The position numbers and the translations under genes were made by a program. A stretch of DNA of 48,567 nucleotides from Eubacteriaceae bacterium. GTDB taxonomy: Bacteria; Bacillota; Clostridia; Eubacteriales; Eubacteriaceae. Shown piece after piece: positions 34,579 through 37,811 of the stretch. Under the pieces are notes generated by a model that saw nothing but the letters and a program-made list of their open reading frames with translations, did no database searches and was not told the DNA's origin. Numbering within the stretch: the stretch's first letter is position 1; each line of letters begins with the position of its first letter. The stretch spans positions 1 through 48,567 of the forward strand of contig JAENWK010000007.1 in assembly GCA_016650045.1 (NCBI GenBank). Direction: 5' to 3'.

Positions 34579-34962
34579 CTAATCTATTTCACCATGGACT
34601 TCCTTATCTTTAACGCTTTTTATTGTATTTTCATCATCAAGCATCAGCACCTTGGGTTTAAACTGAGGTGCTTCTTTTTTGTCTAACATGGCATAGGAGA
34701 TAATAATGACTTTGTCCCCTATTTGGACCAGTCTGGCAGCAGCTCCGTTAACACAGATAACACCGCTGCCTCTTTCCCCTTCAATAGTATAGGTTTCGAA
34801 TCTTTCTCCGTTATTCACATTAACAACCTGAACCCGTTCCCCAGGAAGTATGTCCGATTTTTCCAATAATTCCACATCAATAGTAATACTCCCCACATAA
34901 TTTATATTGGCTTCGGTTATTGTTCCTCGATGTAGCTTTGATTTAAAAAGTGTTATGTACAT
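34579..34962 (-). CDS. panD: Aspartate 1-decarboxylase
   Basis: 127 residues. It makes beta-alanine for pantothenate. The self-cleavage site Gly24-Ser25 is in NYVGSITID; cleavage gives the pyruvoyl cofactor. [19 protein letters not shown] is the conserved C-terminal half. Last gene of panG-panB-panC-panD, 18 bases after panC. Confidence 0.98.
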
Positions 34963-34980: not shown

Positions 34981-35823
34981 TTATTCTAGAATAATGTTGT
35001 CAATCAGTCTTGTATCCCCAAAACGCACTGCCACTGCTGCCAAAGCCGGAGCTTCAATTTTTTTTATTGCTTCCAGGGTATTAAAATCAAGAATATCCAC
35101 ATAATCAATATCAGCCAGAGGCATGGTATTGATTCCATCAGATATGACCGCCTTTAATATTTTCACATCCGTTTCTCCAGTTTTCCAGAGATTCCTCGCA
35201 CGATTTAACGCCTGGCTTAAAATCAGCGCTTGTTTTCTTTCTTCCGGATTTAATCCGACATTTCTGGAGCTCAGTGCGAGTCCGTCGGTCTCTCTGACAA
35301 TCGGGCAGGCCACAATGGTGACCTGCATATGAAGATCTCGAACCATTTTTTTGATCACCGCAAGCTGTTGGGCATCTTTTTGACCAAAATAGGCCTTGTG
35401 AGGGCTAACGATATTAAACAGAGTGTTCACAACGGTGGTCACCCCTTTAAAATGTGCGGGTCTGGAACTTCCGCAAAGTTTTTTGGTGATGGCACCTTCA
35501 ACTTCAACAAAGGTAGAGGCACCAATCGGATATATTTCCCTGGCATCCGGGAAAAATAGAATATCCGCACCTGCTCCCTCAGCCAGTCTGGCATCCCTGT
35601 CCAAATCCCTTGGATAGGTTTCAAAATCCTCTCCCGGACCAAACTGAGTGGGATTAACAAAAATACTGACCACAGTGATATCATTTTCTGAGCTAGCTTT
35701 TTCAATCAGAGAAAGATGCCCTTCATGAAGAAAGCCCATGGTGGGTACAAAACCAATGGCTTTATTTTCCCCATATTCATTGATTGTGTTTCTTAGTATG
35801 TCAATATTCTTAATAATTTTCAT
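34981..35823 (-). CDS. panC: Pantothenate synthetase
   Basis: 280 residues. It joins pantoate and beta-alanine with ATP. Motifs VPTMGFLHEGHLSLI (HxGH), FVNPTQFGPGEDF and LALSSRNVGL. It follows panB by three bases, so is co-translated. Confidence 0.98.
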   Translation of the reverse strand: MKIIKNIDILRNTINEYGENKAIGFVPTMGFLHEGHLSLIEKASSENDITVVSIFVNPTQFGPGEDFETYPRDLDRDARLAEGAGADILFFPDAREIYPIGASTFVEVEGAITKKLCGSSRPAHFKGVTTVVNTLFNIVSPHKAYFGQKDAQQLAVIKKMVRDLHMQVTIVACPIVRETDGLALSSRNVGLNPEERKQALILSQALNRARNLWKTGETDVKILKAVISDGINTMPLADIDYVDILDFNTLEAIKKIEAPALAAVAVRFGDTRLIDNIILE

Positions 35824-35826
35824 ACC

Positions 35827-36663
35827 CTATTTGGAAATCTCTGCAATAATTTTATCGTCAATGGTAAAGGTGTGTTTTTCTTCCGGGAATTTTAAATCCT
35901 TTACTTCTGATATGTAATTTTCAATGGCTTCTTTTATGGTTTCATTAAGAGCCGCATATCGTTTGGAAAATTTTGGGGATTGTCCTGAGTACATGCCCAA
36001 AAGGTCATGTATCACCAAAACCTGTCCGTCACAGTATCTTCCGGCACCAATACCAATGGTCGGAATCGAAACATTTTTTGTGATCAGCTTGGCCAGTTTT
36101 TCCGGAATTCCTTCAAGAACGATTGCAAATGCTCCTGCCTTTTCAAGGGCTACAGCATCGTCAATCACAGCCATTGCCTGGGCCTTGTCTTTTCCCTGAA
36201 CTTTGAATCCCCCAAATACATTGACAGACTGGGGCGTGAGACCGATATGACCCATGACCGGTATCTGGGCTTTAACAATGGCTCTGACCTTGTCTGCCAT
36301 ATCTACGCCGCCTTCAAGTTTGACAGCATGGGCTTTACCTTCCTGAATCAGTCTTCCGGCGTTTCTCACGGCTTCCTCTTCACTGATATGATAGGATAAA
36401 AACGGCATATCTCCAACAATCAAAGCACTTTCTGTGCCTCTGGCAACCGCTTTACAGTGGTAAACCATATCGTCCATGGTAACCTCAAGGGTTGACTCAT
36501 AACCCTGAACCACCATTCCCAGGGAATCTCCCACCAGAATGGCATCAATGCCGGCGCCGTCGACAATTTTTGCCATGGAATAATCGTAGGCTGTTAGCAT
36601 GGTTATTTTTTCTTTGTTTCCCTTGGCCGTTAAAAAAGAGCTCACTGTAAATTTACTTTTCAT
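35827..36663 (-). CDS. panB: 3-methyl-2-oxobutanoate hydroxymethyltransferase
   Basis: 278 residues. It makes ketopantoate from 2-oxoisovalerate using methylene-tetrahydrofolate. Motifs [33 protein letters not shown] and [11 protein letters not shown] 36663 lies 11 bases inside the 3' end of the reductase gene, with AAAGGTG before it. The use of methylene-THF ties it to the folate branch of an acetogen. Confidence 0.98.
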
Positions 36664-37531
36664 TATTTTCACCTTTCGTTACTAAGTTCATTATTTTTAA
36701 ATATTTTTCTGAATCCATTCGTTTATCCTTGATCATATTTAAAGTGGTGATGCCCATGGTCTCATAAAGATCCAGATATTCAGGCATAATGCTTTTTATG
36801 GCATCCAGATGTTTGGAAATGGTATTTTCATCCCCCCGAACCATGGGACCTGTAAGGGCATCGACGGTGCCACACTTCTTCACATTATTCAAAGTGGCTG
36901 TGATCAGCGGCAGAAATGCCGGAGAGATTTTCTCCTGGTCGATCCCTGCCTTTTTTAACATTTCAAATCCTGAATCAATTAAAGTCACCATATAATTTGA
37001 AAGAACGCAGGCGGCGGCGTGGTAGATAATTTTACTCTCCTTATCGATGATAAAAAATTCATTATTGGTTGTCTTAAGAATTTTTCGAATGTCATCTTTG
37101 CCCGAATTATTTCCTTCCAGGGTAAATTTTGTCATCTCAAGGTCTTTGATCGGGGTTGTGACTTCTGAAAAAGTCATGATAGGATGCAGGGAGGCAACCC
37201 CACAGCCCGATTGGTCCAGGGGCTTGAAAACATCCGATGAAAGCGCACCGCTGGTATGGACAAATGTGCGATTTTCATTCAGGGTGGGCGACTGACCAAG
37301 AAGGTTCACCACTTCTGGAATGGCATCATCACCGGTGGTGATAAAAATGACCTCACTTGATTTAATCAGTGAATCCAGGTCTTCAAACAACACTGATCCG
37401 GTGAGTCTGGCTGAGCGTTCAGAGGAACTTCTGGTTTTGCTGTAATACCCCGACACCGACAAGCCCTTTTGTGAAAAAAAGTTTCCCAACGATGTGCCGA
37501 CTTTTCCGGCACCGATAAATCCAATTTTCAT
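36653..37531 (-). CDS. panG: PanG-type ketopantoate reductase (Rossmann + DUF2520)
   Basis: 292 residues. Rossmann motif [13 protein letters not shown] at the start, then [12 protein letters not shown] and SLHPIMTF, and a helical C-terminal domain ([18 protein letters not shown]). This is the Rossmann/DUF2520 family, distinct from PanE. A PanG class of ketopantoate reductase is known from Francisella and some Firmicutes, and the position as first gene before panB fits that role exactly. The assignment rests on family plus context. Confidence 0.82.
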
Positions 37532-37620
37532 AGTCACCATCCTTAACAATTAGTTTAGCTTAAATAAATCCCTGGCGCATACATCAAAATTTACAAATAT
37601 TAATTTTGGCAAAATAAAAA

Positions 37621-37658
37621 AGGACTTCTGCTTTGAAATGGACATAAGCAAAAGACCT
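37621..37658 (-). terminator. Attenuator terminator upstream of panG
   Basis: Arms 37646-37658 and 37621-37633 (AGGTCTTTTGCTT with AAGCAGAAGTCCT, 12 of 13 positions pair counting one G-U) and a 12-base loop, followed by TTTTTATTTT. It sits 90 bases before the panG start and after the pan promoter, so it is an in-leader terminator. Confidence 0.82.
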
Positions 37659-37717
37659 ATTTATATGATATAAATATGGTTCTGATTATTCAGTCTCTGT
37701 CCAAAGGATCAAAGCAG
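37628..37717 (-). promoter_or_regulatory. Antiterminator-capable structured leader of the pantothenate operon (candidate riboswitch)
   Basis: Segment 37698-37717 pairs with 37628-37644 over 15 base pairs (CTGCTTTGA with TCAAAGCAG; TGGACA with TGTCCA). This closes a junction holding two further hairpins, CTGA/TCAG (37682-37693) and the ACC...GGT stem at 37655-37680. The pairing uses bases of the terminator arm, so the two folds exclude each other. It may belong to the pan motif RNA class known upstream of pantothenate genes, or be something else. Confidence 0.65.
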
Positions 37718-37782
37718 GTTTTTAGTTTAATTTTTATCCGTTATGATAAAAGTGCAGCTCACTGAGATACCGCCTTGGGAGT

Positions 37783-37811
37783 ATAATACAATAAAACAAA
37801 ATAAATTGCAA
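37783..37811 (-). promoter_or_regulatory. Promoter of panG-panB-panC-panD
   Basis: TTGCAA (37806-37811), a 17-base spacer and TATTAT (37783-37788) on the minus strand; transcription would start near 37775, about 60 bases before the structured leader. Confidence 0.75.

Follow-up and report, generated by a model that had tools for sequence, protein, structure and literature searches.

The window, the whole stretch of 48,567 nucleotides that was analysed, encodes a pantothenate operon on its reverse strand, panG-panB-panC-panD, and a pan motif lies upstream of these genes on the same strand. The operon and its putative start comprise:

37783 to 37811, reverse strand: promoter-like site, TTGCAA-17 nt-TATTAT; a similar site lies at the same place in same-genus leaders (by eye)
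36653 to 37531, reverse strand: panG-like ketopantoate reductase gene (Rossmann-like and DUF2520; Pfam PF10727, PF10728), first gene of the operon
35827 to 36672, reverse strand: panB (TIGR00222)
34981 to 35823, reverse strand: panC (TIGR00018)
34579 to 34962, reverse strand: panD (TIGR00223)

PanG is a ketopantoate reductase, the role assigned here to the first gene. Transcription would be expected to start about 7 nt past TATTAT, beside the first base of the motif. The promoter proposed in an earlier annotation made from the letters alone (the sequence-only reading) corresponds to the promoter-like site at 37811-37783 on the reverse strand, such sites being no commoner than chance in a scan. 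Just upstream of it (37905-37864, reverse strand), MKTIGLIGGDGTL and the stop codon after it resemble the degraded beginning of an aspartate-racemase-like gene. The assembly (G000) is 2.23 Mb in size at 98.9% completeness, other genomes of the genus being 2.7-4.1 Mb, and its small size reflects either a reduced genome or a partial bin.

The match to the pan motif (RF01749; cmscan, Rfam) at 37776-37687 on the reverse strand scored 56.5 bits against a cut-off of 36.2, spanned the whole model (1-92 of 92) and was the single copy genome-wide, in line with the earlier remark that a pan motif RNA occurs before pantothenate genes in some bacteria. Both tandem stems carry two conserved bulged A residues, on the left and the right strand, in the cmscan alignment:

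37750 to 37776, reverse strand: pan hairpin 1 (P1), with two bulged A residues (cmscan RF01749 alignment)
37691 to 37717, reverse strand: pan hairpin 2 (P2), CTGCTTTGATCC-TTT-GGACAGAGACTG, with two bulged A residues (cmscan)

With the window leader, a known but unsolved family gains a genuine and well-formed member. Described in 2010 (Weinberg et al., PMC2864571), this RNA element has stayed unsolved, and the accessible text of the 2010 paper names panB, panC and aspartate decarboxylase as its associated genes. The window leader shares with the element described there its tandem stems, the two bulged A residues in each and its position before panB/panC/panD-type genes, but the accessible text includes no expression platform, whereas a terminator and a P2-consuming antiterminator can be spelled out here, and in relatives the genes that come after the motif also include panT, OPT transporter, pantothenate kinase and coaBC genes. 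The other Rfam leaders in the window, all on the reverse strand, are a T-box (2495-2282), a ribosomal L20 leader (222-99) and a ribosomal L21 leader (10462-10394).

The part of the leader that extends from P2 towards panG can form two sets of structures:

37616 to 37658, reverse strand: intrinsic terminator, AGGTCTTTTGC / GCAGAAGTCCT plus T-run (sequence; conserved stem)
37709 to 37717, reverse strand: antiterminator outer helix, 5' strand CTGCTTTGA, pairing with 37636-37628 over 9 bp
37628 to 37636, reverse strand: antiterminator outer helix, 3' strand TCAAAGCAG, overlapping the terminator loop and 3' arm
37695 to 37703, reverse strand: antiterminator inner helix, 5' strand, TGGACA plus GAG, pairing with 37644-37639 plus 37648-37646
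37639 to 37648, reverse strand: antiterminator inner helix, 3' strand, CTT-A-TGTCCA, within the terminator arm and loop
37682 to 37693, reverse strand: hairpin CTGA-ATAA-TCAG inside the antiterminator (fold)
37655 to 37680, reverse strand: second hairpin inside the antiterminator (fold), whose ACC/GGT base occupies the first bases of the terminator stem

The terminator arms (AGGTCTTTTGC at 37658-37648 and GCAGAAGTCCT at 37631-37621) are paired at 10 of 11 positions, with TTTTTT at 37621-37616, and the hairpin alone folds at -13.8 kcal/mol; its T-run lies about 85 nt upstream of the panG start codon (37531). Assignment of this terminator to the upstream gene was rejected from its position downstream of the pan motif and promoter-like site. 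The long-range pairing of 37698-37717 with 37628-37644 (reverse strand) comprises the 9 bp outer helix and 6 bp of the inner helix (TGGACA at 37703-37698 with TGTCCA at 37644-37639), 15 bp in all, and encloses the two hairpins. Both this pairing and the terminator at 37621-37658, with its T-run before panG, were found where the sequence-only reading had placed them, and its claim that the two compete holds in that they are mutually exclusive, but P2 is a third party that it had not seen. The 5' strand of P2 pairs with the terminator loop and 3' arm, and the 3' strand of P2 with the terminator 5' arm and loop. Since P2 is itself the 5' side of the long-range pairing, the antiterminator must unzip the motif. 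It dismantles P2 and the terminator together, and the competition is three-way, with P2 and the terminator jointly on one side and the antiterminator on the other. This explicit P2-consuming antiterminator is new.

The whole leader folds at -40 kcal/mol against -27.9 kcal/mol for shuffled sequences (z -3.2), better than all 200 shuffles, and the window energies are -39.2 kcal/mol for the antiterminator state and -31.7 kcal/mol for the state with P2 and terminator. In folds of the growing window transcript, P2 had a probability of about 0.6-0.75 up to nt 139, the inner antiterminator helix was present from nt 143 and the antiterminator had replaced P2 by nt 155, the terminator probability being near 0. 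By sequence and folding the leader has both parts of an attenuator, an intrinsic terminator before the first gene and a competitor helix that excludes it; together with the gene context these pairings and folds support the earlier proposal of a transcriptional switch that would control panG-B-C-D.

The P2:terminator pairing in the window (-25.9 kcal/mol) was matched by 0 of 300 and by 2 of 500 (p 0.006) dinucleotide shuffles of the terminator. This plain shuffle breaks the terminator hairpin and overstates the P2:terminator signal, and the null relied on was one that preserves the hairpin by keeping the same pairs, under which 2 of 500 shuffles matched the window pairing (p 0.006). When just the 16-nt terminator loop of the window was shuffled, 1 of 300 sequences had as good a total fold energy; the same loop-only shuffle in 12 other genus leaders gave no significant gain in antiterminator energy, and the exact antiterminator is therefore not claimed as conserved. 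The hairpin-preserving test was extended to 34 terminator-type pan leaders from several families, from which five near-duplicates had been excluded. The mean z was -1.08 and the Fisher p 1.7e-7, or 7e-6 with the window and its sister L002 removed, and individual p values fell below 0.05 in six leaders; because the remaining leaders are still partly related, the true significance is lower than these p values state. As a set, related terminator-type pan leaders share an excess of P2:terminator complementarity, weaker than that in the window, and this evidence on related leaders is also new.

A protein search returned close relatives including Acetobacterium dehalogenans, A. wieringae and an A. 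woodii MAG, from which the genus is taken to be Acetobacterium or one very close to it. The leader with its terminator was present in every one of the 13 genomes of this genus where a close panB was detected (leaders L001, L002, L006, L008, L009, L011, L012, L014 and L101-L105). Rfam scored eight of these 13 leaders, the five others, mostly with long P1-P2 linkers, being read by eye. Twelve leaders of the genus were aligned with an outgroup from the Eubacteriaceae (L111). Across these 13 aligned leaders P2 was retained in every one, with one pair changed on both sides (A-U/G-C), the terminator stem was paired in 97% of cells, and P2 and terminator jointly in 94%. The window antiterminator was 74% paired in the same alignment, against 38-64% when slid, and its covariation score was equalled by 2 of 500 shuffles. 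The column pair 7-97 varies as U-A, U.G and C-G, and neither hairpin explains this change, because column 7 pairs in P2 with column 23, an invariant G, and column 97 lies unpaired in the terminator loop. The antiterminator covariation is limited, resting on a small number of independent changes, and counts as support rather than proof. A lack of covariation of the pairings in relatives had been named beforehand as an outcome that would speak against the switch; the weak covariation seen leaves the antiterminator standing. Most of the genus (L006-L014, L101-L105) has a homologous antiterminator helix with mismatches, and when folded these leaders pair the P2 region with the terminator loop in other ways. 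Applied to the 13 leaders, RNAalifold gave P2 and the terminator alone, a single-structure method being able to give just one structure. Upstream of panG in L122 (Alkalibacter mobilis) and L127 there is apparently a single P2-type hairpin right after the promoter, with P1 absent and a longer structured stretch between this hairpin and the terminator (by eye).

The genes that follow the motif bear on what is sensed. Among 71 pan loci from relatives of the same class, 55 preceded panG/panB/panC/panD, 10 a PanT-type ECF S component, five an OPT-family transporter and one coaBC, and in several loci panT was followed by coaX (type III) or a type II pantothenate kinase; in L034 and L085 the type II kinase (Fumble, PF03630) stands after the pan-controlled panT in replacement of coaX. 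Six PanT genomes (G045, G325, G257, G339, G076 and G117; completeness 90-99%) were searched for panB, panC, panD and DUF2520, and none was over the cut-off; in G180 panB is present, but neither panC nor panD was found. The folate cofactor used by PanB would fit the suggestion in the sequence-only reading that the leader senses folate or one-carbon state or a pathway intermediate (ketopantoate or pantoate). This is a very improbable reading, since in importer genomes with no detectable panB, panC, panD or PanG-type reductase an intermediate or the PanB cofactor makes a poor candidate, and folate (THF) riboswitch models had no match in the window, where the Rfam hits were only the T-box, L20, L21 and pan leaders. 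The same importer genomes set aside PanB, PanC, PanD and PanG as a general sensor. The presence of the motif on importers, kinases and coaBC without detectable biosynthesis genes, a constraint that is likewise new, narrows the signal and points to pantothenate or a compound made from it. CoA or a near precursor is the preferred candidate over pantothenate in this gene arrangement, because kinase and coaBC genes, whose products would consume pantothenate, are under the same control; a shared operon alone could also account for the placement of these genes.

The leader is best read as a pan-motif transcription attenuator that probably turns panG-B-C-D off at sufficient product. Transcription would begin just before the motif, and P1 and P2 would form first. 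A signal that holds P1-P2, directly or via a protein, would keep P2 closed, allowing the terminator to form and transcription to stop before panG; with no signal, the incoming terminator sequence would invade both strands of P2 (9 bp outer, 6 bp inner), and the antiterminator so formed would break P2 and the terminator and permit read-through into the operon. Since P2 is lost when the antiterminator forms, any factor that keeps the motif together should favour termination, and this sign, bound being off, would fit feedback control. Equilibrium energies agree with unbound read-through for the window, L130, L123, L036 and L124. In unbound equilibrium folding the terminator probability was greater than 0.5 in 29 of 34 leaders, including the nearest relative L002; the off-when-bound sign is therefore one that we infer, and 'read-through unless bound', to hold as a general rule, would need kinetic effects or something beyond this model. 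The folding of relatives' leaders towards termination without ligand would suit the opposite sign, with a signal that promotes the antiterminator and so switches the operon on, but forming the antiterminator takes P2 apart, and P2 is the conserved element for any ligand or protein to recognise. Importers and biosynthesis genes are, moreover, commonly repressed by their end product, and the opposite sign is quite improbable.

That the terminator is already the favoured fold in most relatives could also mean that it is constitutive, the motif affecting RNA stability or translation only and the P2 complementarity being a by-product of two short hairpins. Many pan loci indeed have no terminator and end near or in a ribosome-binding site, leaders with a long motif-to-gene gap being mostly those with a terminator. 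Against this stand the excess of complementarity over the hairpin-keeping null and the covariation of columns 7-97, which neither hairpin accounts for, and we consider such an explanation unlikely. Each of the 15 transporter loci has a motif with a GGAGG-like ribosome-binding site at its end (GAACGGAGG or a variant of it), and the first G of this site is, in our own reading of the sequence, the last paired base of P2. This overlap argues that closure of P2 is the 'off' act in both kinds of platform.

Whether the sensor in such an attenuator would be RNA alone or a bound protein is a nearly even choice. A metabolite-sensing protein, perhaps a dimer, bound to the tandem hairpins, with the RNA as operator and the same attenuation logic, has not far short of an even chance. 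The accessible text of PMC2864571 proposes a dimeric protein from the simple stems and tandem arrangement; the hairpins are small, with two bulged A residues on opposite strands, and single-hairpin versions appear to exist (L122 and L127, by eye). No such protein is known, however, and the pathway enzymes PanB, PanC, PanD and the PanG-type reductase, as stated, gave no match in some motif-bearing genomes. It is possible, if rather doubtful, that in the pan motif RNA alone senses CoA or a close precursor (4'-phosphopantetheine or dephospho-CoA), which two small cooperating hairpins would bind. If true, this would supply a sensor for a cofactor with no riboswitch known in 2022, CoA being listed as such in a review of that year (PMC9971707). 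Literature searches for a pan ligand, a binding protein, a pan riboswitch or a binding or termination experiment, and for a pantothenate or CoA riboswitch, found none in the accessible papers; for the search terms used, PMC11487621, on CoA synthesis in B. subtilis (2024), and a 2025 review (PMC12570885) gave no mention of the pan element.

Among known systems, the leader resembles metabolite riboswitches with a terminator and antiterminator in that the conserved sensor overlaps an antiterminator that excludes the terminator, but the usual aptamers are larger and more complex than the pan hairpins, and the pan ligand is only a candidate. PyrR acts on pyr leaders as a protein-controlled attenuator. 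The likeness to PyrR-type attenuators lies in a leader hairpin that, once recognised, sets the choice of terminator or antiterminator for a biosynthetic operon; they differ in having a known binding protein, and the pan element most often comes as two hairpins in tandem. PyrR is mentioned in PMC4342826. For assays, the window leader would serve well as a template, and its clear-cut terminator and antiterminator, with a large predicted fold change, make ligand and protein candidates testable by run-off transcription.

Four loci (L007, L010, L084 and L091) have birA on the upstream side of their pan motif-panT-coaX unit. BirA was considered as the regulator and rejected, being absent beside most loci and with nothing in its support. 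In five other loci, L078 (1611-3109), L087, L088, L090 and L092, the pan motif ends in a GGAGG/GGGGG ribosome-binding site and a short ORF follows 8 nt on, encoding MMYFISVFQT in L087, L088 and L090, MIILSICHICLSP in L078 and a longer reading in L092; in each case the short ORF is followed by an OPT-family transporter gene (PF03169). The genome with L078 (G372) was searched for panC, panD and a PanT homologue and none was found, which makes its OPT protein a candidate for pantothenate import, possibly accompanied by a leader peptide.
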